The notes beneath the pieces are model-generated. The model ran no database searches. It was given only the letters and a program-made list of their open reading frames with translations, and was not told the DNA's origin. 64,000 nucleotides of DNA from Thunnus maccoyii (Eukaryota; Chordata; Actinopteri; Scombriformes; Scombridae): contig NC_056542.1 of NCBI RefSeq assembly GCF_910596095.1, positions 28,774,957-28,838,956 on the forward strand, in the 5' to 3' direction. The stretch's first letter is position 1. Every line of letters begins with the position of its first letter. Position numbers and translations under genes: made by a program. Positions 30 through 57,381 of this stretch are shown one piece after another.

Positions 30-15009
<14,980 letters not shown>

Positions 15010-42136: not shown

Positions 42137-45100
42137 ATGAGGTCCCTGGCCCTCGGCCTCTTCTGCCTGTTGTGCTGTAATGCAGTTCGGCTGGACAGAA
42201 GGCATCCCAGACCCATCACAGCCAGAGGGCAAAATGAGACTACTGTCCAAACCAAAGCAGTGGGTAAGTGATCAGTTGCTGACATGAATGTATATTTATA
42301 TCTGTTTTACCATCTGCACATTTGTCCAACTCTATCTAAGATACAAAGTCAAACAGCTTTCTTTAGATTTTGGTCCAAACTTGGTTTCCAGATCTCAAAC
42401 TACCTCCATGTCTTTGGTCACAGAGAACCCTTGCAAAGGCATCCCACTGGATTTCGTCTTTGTCATCGACAGCTCCCGAAGTATCCGCCCCAATGACTAC
42501 GAGAAGGTCAAGACATTCATCATCAACCTGCTTCAGTTCCTTGAGGTCGGCCCTGATGCCACGCGGGTCGGTCTGCTCCAGTATGGCAGCGTGGTCCAGA
42601 ACGAATTCTCCCTCAACACCTTCACCACCAAGGCTGAGGTGGAGAAGGCTGTGAGGAGCATGAAGCACCTTGCCACAGGAACCATGACAGGTCTGGCCAT
42701 CCAGTACACCATGGAGACAGCCTTCAGTGAGGCAGAGGAAGCACGACCAGCAAACCTGCACATCCCACGAATCGCTATGATTGTGACTGATGGGAGGCCT
42801 CAGGACACAGTGGAGGAGATTGCAGCTGAGGCCAGGCAGGCCGGCATTCAGATCTTTGCTATTGGAGTGGGCAGGGTGGATATGAACACATTGAAGGCCA
42901 TAGGGAGCGAGCCACACTCTGAGCATGTGCACCTGGTGGCCAACTTCAGCCAGATAGAAAGCCTCATCTCAGTGTTCCAGTCCAAACTGTGCGGAGGTGA
43001 TGAATCCCATCTACATTTCAGTTTTTATGCCTATGTCCCTTCTCATTTAAGCATGTTTGTTTGCACCCTTTTGTTTGAGTGTCTGTGTTTGTGTGTGTGC
43101 ATGCATGCATTAGGTTCAGAGATGTGTGATGTGGTGGACCATCAGTGCCAGCATATCTGTGTGAGCAGCCCTGCCTCTTACAGGTGCAAGTGCAGGAAAG
43201 GTTTCACCCTCAACCCTGATGGCAAGACATGTAAAGGTGAAGGATCTTCTTTCTCTGATCTGATGTGTTCTTTTTAAAAATGTATTCACACAGGAAAAGG
43301 TGACTTTTCTTTTTGAGCTAATCTTTTCATCCCTGGAGGCTGGCTGCAACTAGTCTTCTTGGTTACAAAGCAGCTTTACTTGGAAAACATGACAAAGGGA
43401 AGGACTAAAGGGGACTGAAAAATTAGAACCACTATTGTATCCCCACAATGAATTCCTATATAGTAGAGACATTGCAGGTCATCTGTTAGTACTTTAAAGC
43501 AGCTATAATAAATATTTATATTAAATTTATATTAAAAATGCATCATATGACTGCTTTGTTCAACCAAAATCAGCTTTAAAGAACATTATGGTGTCCTTCA
43601 GCTCTTTGTTTTAGTTTTCCAGCTGCAGCTTTTCCTGTTTTCAGCACTTTATCAATGTTGTTTTGGGCTGCAGCAGGCAGCTGCTTTCAGCGAAAAAAAA
43701 GCTTTAAACCCAACCATACACTACCTGCCCACAACCAAATGCCAGACAGACAAAGTTAGTGACTAGCTGGTGAATATAGTGGTGCATTTAACCACTAAGA
43801 GCCAAATATTTCCTTCAGAATCCCCAAAAAGCAAAAATTAGAGTGAATAATCAACTTACATTAATCAGGTGGACACAAACATGACTCCAAATGAATGCTA
43901 ATGTTCCTCTGTGTCTGCTGGATGTGTATCTCTTTGGTTACAAGTTCACCATATCAACTTAAGGTAATATATGTCAGTGTTTCTGTTTACAGCTTGTTTT
44001 TACTGCCCCAAAGTGGCCAAAATCTGTTGTTTTATTCTGCAAACTCCAAAGTAGATGACAGTTGGATTTCTCTCCATGTTGCCATTCTGCAGCTGAGGAT
44101 ATGTGTGCTGTGGTGGATCATGGCTGTGAACACATCTGTGCCAACCTGCCTGATGGTTACGAGTGCCGTTGTCGTCCAGGGTATCAACTCAACATAGATT
44201 TGAAGACGTGCAACAGTAATAACACCTTTCTTACTTTCCCAGGCACTCCACTCTTCATCTCCCTCCATGTTTTTCCTCCTCCGTCACTGGTCGGCTTACA
44301 CTCTTCTTTCACCTCCTTTTCTTTTACTTCTCTTTTACTCTTCTACAGTACCCCAAGCTTTACACCATGCTTTTACTCCGCAGATTTACATCCTGACTTC
44401 ATCTGGTTGGTGTCGATTGATTCTGCTTTCCTTATATACAGTCCATTAATCAGTCTTAAACCACCATAAATACACAAGTACACAAAACAACATAATCATA
44501 ATGTTTTTAGAATTGTTTTACAACATACCATGTTTACCCTTTATTGATTATGGACACTGCCCATATCAGCAATATAGCCAACACATTTGATGAATAAAAC
44601 TTGATGTACTGGAATAGAGTTGTTCAATGTGTTTAGTTTTGATGGACTTCCAATCCAAATCAGAGCCAGCAGTCTTCCTGCCAGTGATGTCTCTCCACCC
44701 ACTGTTGGAAAACTTCCGTTTTGCTTCTCAAGTGAATGTTAACAGAAAGGGAAGTGGGGGAGATTTCCTGAAGGAAGTGTGCTTTTGCAATCATCAGAGC
44801 AGCTGCTAAGATGCAGAGGTGTATCCAGGGTGTCAAAGTATCACTGACATCAAAACAAGAATATGGGTTCACAGCTCAGCATCTTTTAAATAGTCTTTTT
44901 GAGAATGGATTTTTGTGCACGACAGATTCTTCTCTTAACTTTGTGTGTTTTGTTCTTGTATACTAAGTGTGCATGTGTTGGTCTGAAAAGTGTTATGCAT
45001 ACAGAAAAAAATAGTAAATACAGCAAGAAGGAGAAGAAGAAGAAGAAGAAGAAGAAGAAGAAGAAGAAGAAGAAGAAGAAGAAGAAGAAGAAGAAGAAGA

Positions 45101-48100
45101 AGAAGGAGTTGTAGAAGAAACAACATTGGTTTTACTGGAAGTGGTGCTACAATAGTATATGGAGACATATTTATAGCAGTAGTAATGTAGTGCTATTATC
45201 AGTAGCAGTAATAGTTGTAGAAGCATTACTTTAATAAACAATTAATCCCCCACAGAAATAGACTACTGTGACTTGGGGAACCATGGCTGTGAGCACGACT
45301 GCTTCAGCGTTCCAGGGTCCTACATCTGCAGGTGTAAGAAGGGCTATGTCCTCAATCTGGATGGCAAGACCTGCAGCAGTAAGTTCTTTTGGTGATCTGG
45401 TAAGATGACTGGAAACACAGTCACCTTACAGCAGCAGCTGTGCAAGAAGGTGCAGTTTGAGACAGGCACATTTGCATGCACTCACAACTTGAGCTGAATG
45501 AGAAATAAAGTCAAGCATCAAATGAGCTACATTAAGCTGCCACAGACAGTGAATAGTGAAGCATTAACAAGAAACAATCCCTCTGCTCTTTTCTGTTTCT
45601 CACCCATTGACACCCAGAGATTGATCACTGTGCTGATGGCACCCACGGGTGTGAACAGGAGTTTATGAACACAGAAGACTCATGTGTGTGTAAATGCAGA
45701 AAAGGCTACACACTCAGACCTGATGGGAAAACATGCAAGAGTAAGTGTCCAATGCTTCTTTTCTCTTATTACTGTTAATTCAACAAAGAAAGGAAGATTT
45801 TCTTTGTAATTTTGTGTTCCTACAGCAGCTGCACACTATGAAGTTTGAAAGTTAATCATATTCAGATCCTTCAACATTATTTATATATCACTGATACACT
45901 GGAACAATATAGTAAAGATATATATACATGTAATTTTGCATTGATTGGGATCATGAATTTTGCCTTAATGAATATGTCAGAAGTCATACTAGCAGCAACT
46001 AGAGGCTGTTATATTCATTATACTCCACAATATGAAGAAATTCAGCTCTGAGAGAGCTAGCACAATAAGTAGGGTTCATCCTTTGGGGGCAATAAATATG
46101 CACAAAAATGTGGAAATGTGAAAAAATGAATATTGTCTAAAGATGCTTCATTATTATCAGTTGGATATTTGTTGTGTATTTTACTACTGTATATCCAATG
46201 TCACAAAACAGATGCAACATACTGTGTTTAACATCACCATCTTTCTCTGCCAAAAATGATTGATTGCAGAGGTTCACTACTGTGCCCTTGATACCTTTGG
46301 ATGTAAACAGGAGGTTATGATCTCCGATGAGTTATGTGTTTAAAGGCAGAAAAGGCTACACACTAACATCTGATGGGGAAATGTGCAAAAGCGCTATTCA
46401 ACATTTAATCACCACAGGTGGTAAATGCTTTTCATGAGTCAGAATAGGTTTTATAAGTAATTATTCTTAGTCTTACCTAATAAACTGACTACTTCCTGCA
46501 GAGATTGATCACTGTACTGACGGCAGTCACGGGTGTGAACAGGAGTTTATGAACACAGAGGACTCCTGTGTGTGCAAATGCAGAAAGGGCTACATACTCA
46601 GACCTGATGGAAAAACCTGTAAGAGTAAGTGTCAAATGCTTCTTTCCTCTTATTACTGTTATTTTTAACAAGCAAGGATTTTCTTCAAAATTTCACAGTG
46701 AGGTCTTATTGATTTACACCATGTGTGATGTTATATAGCCTTCATTCATATCTATTATTGATGTCCTATTTTGACCTGTTTTGCATCAGAACTACAGGAC
46801 TGTGTGAACAATTTGTCTCTGGGGTTGACGCCATTGTGCAACACGATCACAAGCATGTTTACTATATCACAAGAAGAAACTTGATAATTATTTGATTATC
46901 TTGAATCTTGAAAAGTCAGACCTTACTTCATGATGTTCTTACAGGGCCTGTACACGATACAGTTTTACAGTTGATCATGTTCAGATCTAATCCTCAACAT
47001 TATTTAGCTATCTGGGATTACATTCATCCTCTGTGGATTATGAATGAGCTCAGTAAATTTTGTACAATTTCATACAACCTGTCCATGAGATTTTGATATT
47101 TCTAATATCTAATAATTCTATACATTTTGGCCTCATAGTGACAGTATAGGAGATGTCAGGGGGTCACCAAAATCACTCATCTCACTCACTCATCCATTGA
47201 CGATAATAAGTGGCCAGTAGCTTTTAACATAGTGTATCTGACTTTGAAAAACAAACTTAAAAGACTGATGCATTTCAACATGATAAAAAATAATACCATG
47301 CTTAATTGTTGGCTCTTGGTTTATTGTTTAAAAAATCCTGTATAGCCCATGTCACAGAAAACAGACACACATCTCTCTCTACTAAAATGATTCATTGCAG
47401 AGTTTGACTACTGTGCCCTTGATACTGCTATAAACTGGAGGTTAAGAACACAGATGGCATGTGTGTGTGTGTGTAAATGCAGAAAAGACTATGTGCTCCA
47501 ATCTGATTGGAAAACATGCATGAGTTCTATTCATCTGTTTCTGACTCATGTATTTAAGACGCAGATGTGATACTTTTAATCACCACAGTAGTTATTTGAT
47601 TTTCTCAGTAATAACTTTTTTTTATCCTGTCTGTTCTTTAACCAATTATTCCCTGCAGAGATTGACCATTGTGCTGACGGGAAACACGGCTGTGAGCAGG
47701 AGTTTATGAGCACAGAGGATTCATGTGTGTGTAAATGCAGAAAAGGCTACACCCTCCAACCTGATGGGAAAACATGTCAGAGTGAGTCCAAGCTCAGTCA
47801 TTGTCATGAATATTTAGTAAACTGCAACCAAGGGATGTGATGTGGATATTCAAAGTCAATGATTCAGTGAGTTACTACAGAATAGAATTGCCTTGTATAA
47901 GATAATAGTTAAAAAAATGTCAGCATAGCAGAAGATAGAGTTGATAGTTGTGAGAGGCAAAGTCAACAAAATTCAGAATATAATCTTTCATCTGCAAATG
48001 TTGACACAACAGTTTCTATCTTCTATTCCAGTATTTATATGTTACATAATTTTGGATACATTTTGAACTGGTTGTGAGGTCAGTTTTAATCCCAGCGCTT

Positions 48101-51100
48101 GCTAAAATTCTAGTTTTCCCCTCCCCCCTCACTAACAACTCTGTACCTCCACAATGTGTCATATAAATAAGCTGTCAACATCATGTTCATCGTTGTTAAA
48201 CTCATAAGTTTGGATCTGTGCCAAACAGTGGACTGTGGTTGTGAGCACCAGTGTGTCAGCACCACAGACTCCTACATCTGCAGATGTTTTGAAGGATTCA
48301 TGCTGGCTGAGGATGGAAAGAGCTGCAAATGTGTTAAATCAACCTTCTTTGATAGAGATACTTTCTTTTAAACTTTCATTTACACTAAAATAGTCACAGT
48401 AAAAAGGACTATTTGTTGTAAAACATGTATTTGATGTTCTTGTTTCTGACAGAACCAGATTGTGGTGATAGAGTCATGGATCTAGTTTTTGTCATTGATG
48501 GCTCCAAGAGTCTGGGCCCTGCCAACTTTGAGCTAGTAAAGCAGTTTGTAAACGCTATTGTGGACTCGCTGGACATCTCCAAGACAGGCACACATGTTGG
48601 TCTTCTTCAGTACTCCAACAAGGTCCGCACAGAGTTCACCCTGGGCCAGTACACCGCAGCGCAGGACATCAAACGAGCTGTGGCCCGCATGGAGTACATG
48701 GGGAGAGGATCCATGACTGGCTCAGCCTTACGCCACATGTTTGAGCTCAGCTTTTCAGCCAAAGAAGGGGCCAGGCCGAACATCCCGCGTGTCAGCATTG
48801 TGTTCACTGATGGGAGATCACAGGATGATGTTTCCGAATGGGCTAATAAAGCAAAGAACTCTGGTACACTTGTTATCTCGCCATCCAGATGCACTGCAGT
48901 CTCAAATCAAACTATTAATTTCAAATATTCATTCTTTCTAGCAGCAGTTCTCTGTCATTATCCCGTTTTCTTTTACTTTCAGGAGTCACAATATATGCCT
49001 TGGGTGTTGGCAAAGCCATTGAACAGGAGCTGAGGGAAATAGCATCAGAACCTGATGAGAAGCACCTTTATTACGCTGAGGATTTTGAGAAAATGGGAGA
49101 AATTACTAAGAAGCTCAAATCCAGGATATGTAAAGGTACTCCACACATGGCTGAACCACTTTGCCAAACAGGGTCTCCAAAATGGTGGCTTAGTTAAAAT
49201 GTCTAAGAATGTCAGATCAACAGTTAAAGTTCAGTTTCCTACAAGCCAGTTTCTTAAAAATGTAGTTTTCAACACTTTCTTCTATTACAATAGTGCATCA
49301 CTGCCACCTACTGCTACCTTAATGATCACTGATCGGATCAGAGCAGCAGCACCATGCATTAGTCTATATCACCTAAATCATCAGTTGTCTCTGCTCTGCT
49401 GTCATAGTAAAGACTGTATTTCATCCACGTTTACTACATTCTCTACAGGCAGAGACAGGAAGGGAAGCCTGCAGGGAGAGATTTGAAGAGATAGGGTGAG
49501 AAAAAGGCTGAAAGAGAAAAGATAAGAAAAAATATTTTCTTTATTTTCTCCACAGACAAACCAGCTGATGAAAACATGTGCCATTGTGAGAACGTGATAA
49601 TGTTTCAAGACCAGGTCACCAAGAAACTGAAGAACCTGGTACAGAATAATATCCTTTTCTGAATAGCTGTCTATCTCAGAGACACATTAACATTCATGTT
49701 TTTCTGGTAATTTAAGTCAGCTCTGCCTCTGCTAAAGTATCTGCCAAAGGTAATCATCTGTAATCATAGAAGACTAGTGCAACTGCATAGACAACTATCC
49801 GCTGCAACTGTTTCAAATCAACAGGAAAACATAATGTTAAAATCCTTCCTGTGATTTTGGTTTTGAGTCTGGTTATTTGCTTTCAAGGATGTTTTTTCAG
49901 GGCAGACTGTGCTGTGCTGAGAAGTGACCAACAATGCTGATGAGGGCAAAAATGATTTCATGTGTCAGCTGTGCACTTTGAAGTACTTTAAAATAAATAA
50001 ATAAATAGAAATGTATTGGGCATTTTATGCCTTTATTAGATACGGGCAGTAGAGTGAGATGACAGGAAATGAGGAGAGAGAGAGATGGTTTTGGTGTATT
50101 ACATGCAACAAAAGTCTGCTGCTAGAACTGAACCAAGGACATGAGGCCAAAAATAAATGGAAATTAAATCAATATGTGTCTGTAATGGATTAGTAAGACC
50201 AGTAATATGCACATATTGACTCAAAGTCCAGCTGAAATTAAATTGGCTTTTTGTCTACTACAGCACACATATCTGCTCTGTAAATCACTTGTCCTGTTCT
50301 CCTTTGAGAAAAAAATCTGAAACCAAAAGGGAGAAATCTATATTTTCAACTCTTTGATTTCATGATGTTAGTTTTACATTATTTTGATGAAATACTGTTC
50401 CATCATCCGCTTACGTAGCTGGTCCTTATTTCAACACAGCAAATCAAATCTTTGAATGAAGTGATAACGTGGCGTTTGATCAGAGGCAGAACAGACAGTC
50501 ACACTGAGCCTGATAGCATCCTGCTACACAACACAAGAACCACAGACTCTGAACAACAACCCATGTTAGCTTCCTTCCTTCTGATCTAACTTATAAACAT
50601 GAAATCACGTCTTGTCCTGCACCTTAGCTTGTTGAACAAGCCACCAAACAAACAATCACATAGATGCTGGTTTGGTCACTGCCCTTCAAGATTCCTGTCT
50701 GTCCATTACTTGGAACTATTTGCAGTTTGTTTACTTTGTCTCTGTTCTGTACGGTGTAATACCGATAGTCTGCCAGTAATGTCAATCAAACAAGCCTCTG
50801 ACACGCCTCCCCAGCCGCTGAGACAAAAAGGAGAATTTCTGATGTTTCCCTTAAGACCTTTTCTCTTCATTCTAACAATACAAAACTATTGATACATTTA
50901 AAAACTATGATGACATTATTTTTGACTGCAAAGAGGGATAATTAAATGTGATTCCAGTTGGACTTTAAAGGTGCAGTGTATAGGATTTAGTGATATCTAG
51001 TGGTCTACGGGGGGGAGGTTACAGATTGCAGATTACTCCCCCCCCCCCCCTTCCAAGTGTGTAGGAGAACCAGGTAGCCATGGAACTCCTGAAAAACGTG

Positions 51101-51842
51101 ACAGGGCCAGTGTTTGGTTTGTTTGTTCTGGGCTACTGGAGAAACATGGCGGTGCAACATAGCAGCCTCCATGGAAGACGACCTGCTCCCTGTGTAGAAT
51201 ATAAAGGGCTCATTCTAAGGTAACAAAAACACAATGATTCTGTGCTAAACAGAACTTGAGGCATTGTTGCAGTTTCAAGTTTTTGGTTTCACTTTAAAAT
51301 CCATCATGTGGAGCAAGTAGAGGAAACAATAGCTAATAAATACAAGGTGTGCCAGATGGTGCTCAGTTGCACCATTGAGACTGATGATGCCACAGACCTA
51401 TGCTACTTGTAAGATGGCAAATGTTTCTTTGAGAATGGAAGATCTTACTTTGTCATTAAAAGATATAAGCCTTCCTTGAACAGTGGTCTAAAATCATCTA
51501 AGGAACTAAAATGGTGTTGATGTTGTATCTTACAATCAGTGTACACCTGTGACATCATCAGTCTAAGTGATGCAACTGAGAAGCAATCAGCTGGCACACC
51601 TGATTTATTATTTGTTGTTTCCTGACACCCCTACCTGCTCCTGATGATAGAGATAGTTTGAGAAACCCTTTTTTTTTTGGAGTAACTCTCCTCTTATATA
51701 TTTTAAATATCAGTGGATTTCCTGGTTTATAGAACTCTGTAGGTTGTGTGTTTATTTGGATCTGCTACTTTCTTTAACATGCCCACTTGAAGCCATGTCA
51801 AAGAAGCTGGAGACACTTGAGAATCAACTTGTGCACAAATGA
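42137..51842 (+). CDS. matn2: Matrilin, by synteny matrilin-2, complete, 13 coding exons
   Basis: Exons 42137-42263, 42424-42996, 43114-43236, 44093-44215, 45256-45378, 45618-45740, 46502-46624, 47659-47781, 48229-48330, 48459-48863, 48983-49135, 49556-49648 and 51787-51842 join to about 748 residues. The order is signal peptide ([16 protein letters not shown]), vWA1, seven EGF modules, vWA2, a short linker with CHCEN cysteines and a C-terminal coiled coil. This is the matrilin design: oligomeric adaptor proteins of the extracellular matrix that link collagen fibrils and proteoglycans. The coiled coil forms the oligomer and the CxC cysteines cross-link it. Human MATN2 has ten EGF modules and a unique segment of roughly 75 residues before the coiled coil; that segment is absent here. 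Lying between laptm4b and erich5 points to matn2; matn4 is the alternative on protein features alone. The exact borders of EGF7 and vWA2 are uncertain. Confidence 0.86.
42424..42996 (+). CDS. matn2: matrilin exon encoding vWA1
   Basis: A single exon encodes the whole first von Willebrand factor A domain. The MIDAS metal site is complete: DSSRS (DxSxS), the Thr of [11 protein letters not shown] and the Asp of IVTDGRPQD. Most residues match human MATN2 over [19 protein letters not shown] and [20 protein letters not shown]. It follows the signal-peptide exon 42137-42263, whose product after cleavage is a short basic N-terminal tail ([15 protein letters not shown]). Confidence 0.93.
43114..45378 (+). 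CDS. matn2: matrilin EGF modules 1-3 (three 123-bp exons)
   Basis: Exons 43114-43236, 44093-44215 and 45256-45378 are each exactly 123 bp and start and end in phase 1, so any number can be skipped or duplicated without breaking the frame. Each encodes a canonical matrilin EGF: C-x6-C-x3-C-x8-C-x-C-x12-C, for example [12 protein letters not shown] then [18 protein letters not shown]. All six cysteines are in standard positions, in contrast to EGF4-6. Confidence 0.93.
43590..43985. repeat. Interspersed repeat, copy B (paralogous to 29590-29905)
   Basis: This copy lies in the matrilin intron between EGF1 and EGF2. It shares ordered landmarks with copy A in laptm4b intron 2, ending in a TATCAACTTAAGG phrase. 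Confidence 0.55.
45033..45105. repeat. (GAA)n trinucleotide repeat, about 24 units
   Basis: A pure GAA/TTC run in the intron between EGF2 and EGF3, oriented with the purine strand as the transcribed gene's sense strand. Poly-Arg, poly-Lys and poly-Ser/Leu frames over it are artefacts of the repeat. Confidence 0.97.
45618..45740 (+). CDS. matn2: matrilin EGF4, atypical cysteine spacing
   Basis: A 123-bp phase-1 exon encoding [20 protein letters not shown] followed by [20 protein letters not shown]. The third canonical cysteine is Phe (EQEF instead of EHxC) and a new cysteine appears seven residues later (DSC instead of DSY), so the module still has six cysteines. Acceptor and donor (GTAAGT) are good. 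Confidence 0.9.
46270..46390 (+). pseudogene. Decayed matrilin EGF exon B1
   Basis: Preceded by a normal TTGCAG acceptor, this stretch encodes [20 protein letters not shown] before a TAA stop at 46347-46349. Compared with its 123-bp sister exons it has a net 2-bp deletion near 46345, after which the ancestral RKGYTL frame resumes, and its donor GT has become GC (after 46390). It is an exon relic and is not expected to be spliced in. Confidence 0.8.
46502..46624 (+). CDS. matn2: matrilin EGF5, atypical cysteine spacing
   Basis: A 123-bp phase-1 exon with [20 protein letters not shown] and [20 protein letters not shown]. It is nearly identical to EGF4 and has the same Phe for the third cysteine and the same extra cysteine. 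Splice sites are consensus. Confidence 0.9.
47401..47523 (+). pseudogene. Decayed matrilin EGF exon B2 (open frame, weak splice site)
   Basis: This 123-bp stretch after a TTGCAG acceptor has no stop codon, but compensating indels changed its middle: the second canonical cysteine is gone ([20 protein letters not shown]). Its donor is AGTTCTAT rather than AGTAAGT. It matches relic B1 in its first 25 bases. It is probably dead, but because its length and phase are right, inclusion would keep the frame. Confidence 0.65.
47659..47781 (+). CDS. matn2: matrilin EGF6, atypical cysteine spacing
   Basis: A 123-bp phase-1 exon with [20 protein letters not shown] and [20 protein letters not shown]. It is the third member of the A-type set. 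Unlike EGF4 and EGF5, the intron after it (GTGAGT donor) does not match the duplicated intron sequence, marking the end of the block. Confidence 0.9.
48229..48330 (+). CDS. matn2: matrilin EGF7, shortened, 5' border uncertain
   Basis: The only acceptor close by that keeps the frame is CCAAACAG ending at 48228, giving a 102-bp exon that encodes [20 protein letters not shown] then [14 protein letters not shown]. Canonical matrilin EGFs have six residues between the first two cysteines; here there is one. The DNA just upstream (48213-48228) still encodes DLCQTV, which aligns with DVCQAI of human EGF9, so the exon probably began near 48208 in the past. The donor GTGTTA at 48331 is weak. Confidence 0.65.
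48459..49135 (+). CDS. matn2: matrilin exons encoding vWA2
   Basis: Two exons, 48459-48863 and 48983-49135, encode the second vWA domain. MIDAS residues are present: DGSKS, the Thr of [11 protein letters not shown] and the Asp of VFTDGRSQD. The second exon reads [20 protein letters not shown] and [20 protein letters not shown], close to human MATN2. The first exon has two candidate acceptors 6 bp apart; the distal one (AG 48457-48458) is used here because the proximal one would create a stop codon at the junction. Confidence 0.85.
49556..51842 (+). CDS. matn2: matrilin linker and coiled-coil exons, split by an AT-AC intron
   Basis: Exon 49556-49648 encodes [20 protein letters not shown] then [11 protein letters not shown]; exon 51787-51842 encodes [18 protein letters not shown] and the TGA stop 51840-51842. 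Joined, they give heptad hydrophobics that align residue for residue with the human ending LTQRLEEMTQRMEALENRL. The CHC pair matches the CKC of human MATN2, cysteines that form interchain bonds. GT-AG splicing does not join these exons in frame; the AT-AC border does. Confidence 0.9.
50968..51250. repeat. Degenerate teleost interspersed repeat
   Basis: AGGTGCAGTGTATAGGATTT near its left end, then CCAGTGTTTGGTTTGT, GAAACATGGCGGTGCAACAT and GGGCTCATTCTAAGGTAAC, matches a repeat that I recognise as very common in percomorph genomes. A G run (51009-51015) and a 13-base C run (51038-51050) lie inside. It sits within the AT-AC intron. Confidence 0.6.
51302..51646. mobile_element. Foldback / MITE-like element with ~95-bp inverted arms
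   Basis: Left arm about 51302-51396 and right arm about 51545-51646 are inverted copies of one another. They share, in order, GGAGCA, GGAAACAA, AATAAAT, AGGTGTGCCAG, TCAGTTGCA and GACTGATGATG. The spacer is about 150 bp and has no coding content. Arms differ by small indels, so the insertion is not recent. Such structure is typical of non-autonomous DNA transposons; no clean target duplication was found. Confidence 0.75.
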
Positions 51843-55600: not shown

Positions 55601-57381
55601 ATGTACATAACAATGTGTTGTTGTGTGTGTTATGTTTATGTAATATCTTGGTTTTTTTGTTTTTACAGTTTATCTATAAATTAAACAGTTTTCAGCTGGT
55701 TATCATTTTGCAATCAGTTTATAAATAAATACAATTCATTTATTCAAGAAAGGACATACAAAACACCTTCCAATATAGCACTTAACGCTTGGATGACAGA
55801 ACGTCAGAGCGCTAATAAGATTGCTGTCCTGACAAATGTGGTCATTTATTAACAAAACTATTCAATTCATAGATTAGCTCAAGGACACTTTCAGACCCCC
55901 CACAATGTTTCCAGCTCAGTAAAATGAGAAATCTTCTTAAAAGCTCTTTTGTTGCTCTTTGTTGCCATGTAGTTAGCGTTACACATTAACAGGACGTCAC
56001 TACCTGAACAGAATGATGCTTGCCAGTCGTAAATCCTAATCAAGCTTGTCTTTGCTCCCCCCTGTGTTGACAGCAGTCAGAAACGGCATCATCGCAGAAG
56101 ATGCAGAAACCATCGAGGACCAGATGCAGCTGCCTGTGCAGAGTGCCTTACCAGATGATCTTCAACCGGGAGCTGATGATGAGGCGGAGGCTGTGTTAGT
56201 GGCCCTGGAGGCACAGGAGGATCTAGGCTCTGGGGAGGACCTCCTGGCTGCTCCTGAACCACAGCCAGAACCTGTCACCCCTGAAGAACCAGCTTCAGCT
56301 GCTGCTCCAGCAGAAGCCACTACTGAACCTGAGGCTGCTGTAGTGGTGGAGGCACCACCCCCTGTGGAGGAAGTTGTCCCTGTAGAAACTATAGTGGCTG
56401 AGGCTCCTCCTGAGGTCAAAGCCATTGTTGAGGCTACAGAGGAGGCCCCTGCTGTGGAACCTGTTGTACCAGTGCAGGATGAGGCCCCTGCTGTTGTTGA
56501 AGAGGCAGCTGCTGTGCCAGCTGAGGCCGTGCCTGAAGTTGCAACCCCTGCTGTTGAGCTTCCTGTAGCAGAGTCTGCAGAGGCCCCAGCGGTTGTGGAG
56601 GAAGCAGTAGCTGTTGAAGTGGCTGCTCCTGTGGAAGCAGAGGCTCCAACTGACAATGCTGCAGCAGTTACTGCCCCAGCAGTGCCAGCTGAATCTCCAG
56701 CTCCAAGTGAGGCTTCAGCAGCAGCACCAAGTGAGGCTGCAGCACCAAGTGAGGCTGCAGCACCAAGTGAAGCTGTAGCTGTACCAGCTGAGGCTCCAGT
56801 ACCAGGTGAAGTCTCAGCACCAGCTGAATCCTCGGCACCCGTTGCGGCTGCTGAGCCTGTAATAGATACAGCGATTGCGGTGGCGACTATTCCAGAGATG
56901 CCTCCATTATCTTCAGCTGAAGCCCAAGCTGAGCCTGCTGCAGCCCCTGCTGAGACTGCACCACCAGCGGAAACTCCCTGCCCTGCAGAAGCTGCCTCTG
57001 CTCCAGCACCAGAAGCTAAACCAGCTGCTGCTGAGCCAGTTCAACAGGCAGAGGCTCCAGCAGAAGTAGCCCCAGAAGTTCCACCAGCAACTGTGACCTC
57101 AGAGTCAGCGGCGGACACTGCAGCCCCAGTGGTGGGTCTTGTGGTTGAACCCACCCCAGCAGAATCTAAAGCACCCTCAGCACCAGCCCCTGCCGCTGAT
57201 CCAGCCCCTGAACCCTCACCTGAAGGTATTGACTGATACCCCAATGTTGCTTTCTCTAATCTTGTCAGATATTTTACATTGTTTCTTGACATATTCGCAC
57301 AAAGAAACGTCTTGCCCTGCCTTTTTAGTCATCTCTCTATATCAATTATTGAAAAGAAAAAAGATCCCCAATTTTTTATTC

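Follow-up and report, generated by a model that had tools for sequence, protein, structure and literature searches.

How far can the cysteine pattern of an epidermal growth factor (EGF) module be altered while the module itself is kept? The question is raised by a matrilin-2-like gene in a 64,000-nucleotide stretch of the Thunnus maccoyii genome (assembly GCF_910596095.1, contig NC_056542.1, positions 28,774,957 to 28,838,956 of the forward strand), hereafter the window, whose own coordinates are used throughout. The six cysteines of EGF modules are close to fixed, yet here the loss of one and the gain of another are combined and kept in three copies.

A relocated cysteine in three matrilin-2-like EGF modules

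The first three EGF modules of the protein have the spacing C-x6-C-x3-C-x8-C-x-C-x12-C, whereas EGF4, EGF5 and EGF6 read C-x6-C-x10-C-x-C-x-C-x12-C, with phenylalanine at the place of the canonical third cysteine (C-x6-C-x3-F-x6-C-x-C-x-C-x12-C). Numbering from the Glu of the EIDHC motif, the canonical third-position cysteine is replaced by Phe16 and the new cysteine, residue 23, stands two positions ahead of Cys4 at a site occupied by Tyr in EGF1, EGF2, EGF3 and EGF7. In other respects the altered modules resemble EGF1-3, i.e. they are about 42 residues long, Cys1, 2, 4, 5 and 6 are in place, they end in DGKTC or DLKTC and each is encoded by a phase 1-1 exon. The initial annotation described the relocated cysteine exactly, in its start (45618), end (47781) and spacing, and its description of EGF1-3 as canonical agrees with their cysteine spacing. 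Judged from the sequence, the change in EGF4-6 is real, kept and unusual, and no paper on the pattern was recognised among the matches listed in a literature search of titles and abstract openings.

The altered modules also score lower against EGF profiles: EGF4, 5 and 6 reach 26.9, 24.4 and 28.5 against PF14670 (cut-off 33.4), compared with 42-49 for EGF1, 2, 3 and 7, and 22.5, 19.5 and 17.1 against the calcium-binding EGF family PF07645, below its cut-off of 27. As a tentative lead, human MATN2 presumably has an EGF module reading CEQLCLNTEDSFVCQC; if so, Cys and Phe would have exactly changed places here, by one base each.

The gene spans 42137-51842 on the forward strand and is complete, its 13 joined exons encoding 746 residues in a frame without stop, and all 12 introns are in phase 1. 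Pfam found two VWA domains in the spliced protein, with the EGF tract between them, and a matrilin coiled coil (PF10393, 42.9 bits against a cut-off of 26.3). These domains, together with the neighbouring genes described below, support the initial identification of the gene as matrilin-2-like, and it is taken as matn2 of a ray-finned fish. Its exons, all placed by the spliced frame and by the further evidence given in brackets, are:

42137 to 42263, forward strand: first coding exon (start codon; signal peptide by appearance)
42424 to 42996, forward strand: VWA1 exon (PF00092, 5.9e-52)
43120 to 43236, forward strand: EGF1 exon, canonical (cysteine spacing)
44093 to 44215, forward strand: EGF2 exon, canonical (cysteine spacing)
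45256 to 45378, forward strand: EGF3 exon, canonical (cysteine spacing; AlphaFold control)
45618 to 45740, forward strand: EGF4 exon (A1), Cys3 replaced by Phe, new Cys two before Cys4 (AlphaFold)
46502 to 46624, forward strand: EGF5 exon (A2), changes as in A1
47659 to 47781, forward strand: EGF6 exon (A3), changes as in A1
48229 to 48330, forward strand: EGF7 exon, with Cys3 retained and Cys1 separated from Cys2 by one residue
48459 to 48863, forward strand: first exon of VWA2 (PF00092)
48983 to 49135, forward strand: second exon of VWA2 (PF00092)
49556 to 49648, forward strand: first coiled-coil exon, followed by an AT-AC intron (PF10393)
51787 to 51842, forward strand: last coiled-coil exon, with stop

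EGF7 is non-canonical too, its Cys1 and Cys2 being separated by a single residue (MDCGCEHQC) instead of six. For the EGF7-VWA2 junction, the GT at 48331 was joined to the AG at 48457-48458, which gives an open frame; splicing to the nearest upstream AG was rejected because it gives a stop codon. The intron between the EGF2 and EGF3 exons holds 27 AAG copies at 45025-45105. The last intron (49649-51786) is of the minor AT-AC (U12) type, running from ATATCC to CCCAC, and separates the two coiled-coil exons; a portion of PMC6865273 describes introns of the minor class in each of the four matrilin genes. Earlier work, as cited in a passage of PMC2427018, found the number of EGF repeats to be without effect on matrilin assembly.

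Exon array and selection on its copies

The EGF4-6 exons, each of 123 nucleotides with phase 1 at both ends, belong to an array that repeat and BLAST searches ordered as A1-B1-A2-B2-A3. The same searches aligned A1 and its 3' flank to A2 (87% over 198 positions) and B1-A2, with the intron, to B2-A3 (70% over 429 positions), in line with the earlier claim of a duplication origin for the three exons. The two B copies, overlooked in the initial annotation like the odd spacing of EGF7 and recognised by sequence comparison and donor scoring, are:

46270 to 46390, forward strand: decayed EGF exon B1
47401 to 47523, forward strand: decayed EGF exon B2

B1 retains Cys1 and Cys2, with Val at the place of Cys3 and a Cys two before Cys4, after which come a two-base deletion and then a stop; its best donor, a GC, agrees with the consensus at 4 of 9 bases. 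B2 contains indels, has lost Cys2, likewise has Val at the place of Cys3, and its donor matches only 2 of 9 consensus bases. It probably carries the new cysteine, albeit less certainly, as the residue sits in a TGTG run with indels. Cys3 is therefore absent from all five copies and the new cysteine is plain in A1-A3 and B1, from which it follows that the change predates the array. That it is older than the duplication, as first proposed, is thus clear from B1 and agrees with the less certain cysteine of B2.

That the pattern stems from an error of assembly or sequencing, or from gene conversion that spread such an error, is scarcely credible. The three copies are alike at the protein level, but they differ at 12, 16 and 20 of 120 nucleotides (A1-A2, A1-A3 and A2-A3), mostly silently, and a decayed fourth copy has both changes. 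Assembly error is ruled out by the same two changes standing in three copies that differ at so many bases. Silent sites differ far more than replacement sites, which rules out that gene conversion by itself made the copies alike.

The six cysteines and the Phe are identical in A1, A2 and A3 despite these nucleotide differences. With some 98 sites for replacement and 22 for silent change in each comparison, A1-A2 show 3.0 replacement and 9.0 silent differences (replacement divergence, dN, 0.031; silent divergence, dS, 0.585), A1-A3 5.0 and 11.0 (dN 0.053, dS 0.813) and A2-A3 7.5 and 12.5 (dN 0.080, dS 1.100). Fisher tests on rounded counts gave p = 7e-6, 2e-6 and 2e-6 respectively, the pairs not being independent. 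In simulations of random substitution (20,000 copies per substitution level), an open frame with all six cysteines was kept in 2.0%, 0.1% and 0% of copies at 23, 45 and 70 substitutions, and in 0.005% in a separate run at 70. Since the differences are mostly silent and all six cysteines are kept, EGF4-6 look maintained as protein by purifying selection, and the earlier statement that three copies have been kept finds support in a dN far below dS. The dS values call for caution and yield no ages: each pair offers about 22 silent sites, and these have diverged further than the alignable 3' flank of A1-A2 (51 of 62 positions identical).

It might still be argued that these exons are being lost, that they misfold or are skipped as B1 and B2 would be, and that chance alone has kept them; two of the five copies have decayed, and skipping a phase 1-1 exon leaves the frame intact. 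This is very unlikely, given a dN far under dS, six retained cysteines, the rarity with which random substitution preserves both frame and cysteines, and EGF4-6 donors with 7 of 9 consensus bases, equal to the best among the nine EGF-type exons scored.

Predicted fold and pairing of the cysteines

AlphaFold predicted an EGF hairpin for EGF4, with strands at residues 15-18 and 23-26, Phe16 and Cys23 on opposite strands and low confidence around Cys1; EGF4 also matched EGF folds in fold comparison. On this model residue 16 should lie opposite 25 and residue 18 opposite 23, so that 16, 23 and 25 share one side. The initial annotation held that the standard 1-3, 2-4, 5-6 disulfide pattern would have to shift, which is too strong: the new cysteine still falls between Cys2 and Cys4 and is still third in order, so the pattern can persist while the third cysteine relocates. 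The reading somewhat favoured here is that EGF4-6 remain working EGF modules whose third half-cystine has shifted across the main hairpin, from strand 1 to strand 2, with the pairing order kept.

The bond pairs and the order of evolutionary steps inferred under this reading would be as follows. In a canonical matrilin EGF module, Cys3 at residue 16 lies in strand 1 and is bonded with Cys1, and residue 23 in strand 2 is an aromatic; in EGF4-6 Cys16 has become Phe and residue 23 Cys. Cys1, orphaned by the loss of Cys16, could reach Cys23 if its segment slides, so that its anchor moves toward the hairpin turn and Cys1 would bond Cys23 rather than Cys16, the 2-4 and 5-6 bonds being unchanged and the order 1-3, 2-4, 5-6 retained. 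The likely route would be a gain of Cys23 first, giving seven cysteines and two candidate partners for Cys1, followed by loss of Cys16. The change itself arose in a single ancestral exon, whose later duplication gave the A-B-A-B-A array, where two B copies decayed and three A copies were kept by selection. Phe16 may stand in for the aromatic lost at 23, an idea that is not firm, since Val occupies position 16 in the decayed B copies.

Hydroxylation of EGF modules by AspH follows the pattern C-x-N/D-x4-Y/F-x-C. This pattern is broken in EGF4-6, which are expected to escape the modification.

Cys1 and Cys23 might instead bond between neighbouring modules or oligomer chains and so cross-link the EGF rod. 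The aromatic that canonical modules carry at residue 23 packs on the next module, which counts for such bonding, as do the consecutive positions of EGF4, 5 and 6 in the protein and the uncertainty of AlphaFold over the position of the Cys1 segment. Furthermore, passages of PMC8991201 describe disulfide-bonded multimers of NOTCH3 modules whose cysteine count is odd. The arrangement is nevertheless unlikely: the change began in a single exon before there was an array, the number of cysteines per module is even, and if bonding ran along the chain, Cys1 of EGF4 and Cys23 of EGF6 would lack partners. Pairing between chains, which the initial annotation had raised, is thus possible but nothing in the analysis favours it, and it is rather unlikely that bonds of either kind have produced a disulfide-laced EGF rod in the matrilin-2 of this lineage. 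The same source states that a single cysteine gained or lost in NOTCH3 EGF modules causes disease; the mutants of cerebral autosomal dominant arteriopathy with subcortical infarcts and leukoencephalopathy (CADASIL) share such a gain or loss with EGF4-6 but have an odd number and form multimers, whereas EGF4-6 combine loss with gain and keep an even number (PMC8991201).

A different pairing within the module, such as 1-4 with 2-3 or 1-2 with 3-4, is decidedly unlikely. As Cys25 comes two positions after Cys23, partners could swap; passages of PMC6817910 record 1-2, 3-4, 5-6 bonds in thrombomodulin EGF5, and AspH acting on a form of EGF modules that has a 3-4 bond and a ring of ten residues. However, no data favour such a pairing in EGF4-6, Cys2, Cys4, Cys5 and Cys6 are in their normal places, and a 3-4 bond would link residues 23 and 25 in a strained ring within one strand. 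Thrombomodulin EGF5 resembles EGF4-6 in departing from the usual disulfides but differs in its pairing (PMC6817910), while EGF4-6 differ in the place of a cysteine and their pairing order may be unchanged.

Other EGF systems offer partial likenesses. When EGF4 was compared by sequence and by fold, the top matches included coagulation factor X EGF2 and EGF modules of the low-density lipoprotein receptor family, although in the two alignments examined factor X and LRP4 have Cys3 and no Cys two before Cys4. The Jagged-1 exon 6 unit (EGF1-2) also has odd cysteine spacing and still folds with EGF topology, but it does so with short loops and an extra N-terminal bond, as described in part of PMC2725086; in EGF4-6 the Cys2-Cys3 loop goes from 3 to 10 residues and the Cys3-Cys4 loop from 8 to 1, with the distance from Cys2 to Cys4 staying at 12.

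Gene neighbourhood and significance

MTDH/LYRIC lies upstream of matn2, at 16.9 kb of the window (PF15686, 1.8e-45), and a HECT ubiquitin ligase fragment is found at 13179-13610 (PF00632), adjoined by open reading frames that presumably belong to UBR5. Downstream, a long open reading frame at 56040-57233 is rich in Ala, Pro, Glu and Val; a 65-residue piece from near its start gave no Pfam match, and from its position it is presumably ERICH5. The open reading frames at 30.9-31.5 kb, between MTDH and matn2, gave no match in Pfam and are tentatively read as LAPTM4B. MATN2 is near LAPTM4B in human, mouse and Tetraodon in the part of PMC1464127 concerned, where a table enters zebrafish matrilin-2 as a dash. 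A search with the VWA1 exon for stray animal DNA in viral and genome contigs returned 5 and 59 pattern matches, and no relative was confirmed among them.

If bonds between modules or chains did prove true, they would amount to a novel means of stiffening or cross-linking the filaments of the matrix. More generally, since loss and gain of a cysteine are here combined and kept in three copies, an EGF module may be re-bridged in evolution via a seven-cysteine step. EGF4-6 form a small natural test of disulfide movement, for which EGF3 of the same protein serves as the canonical control, and the three kept copies suggest that a normally fixed fold can be re-bridged without being lost.
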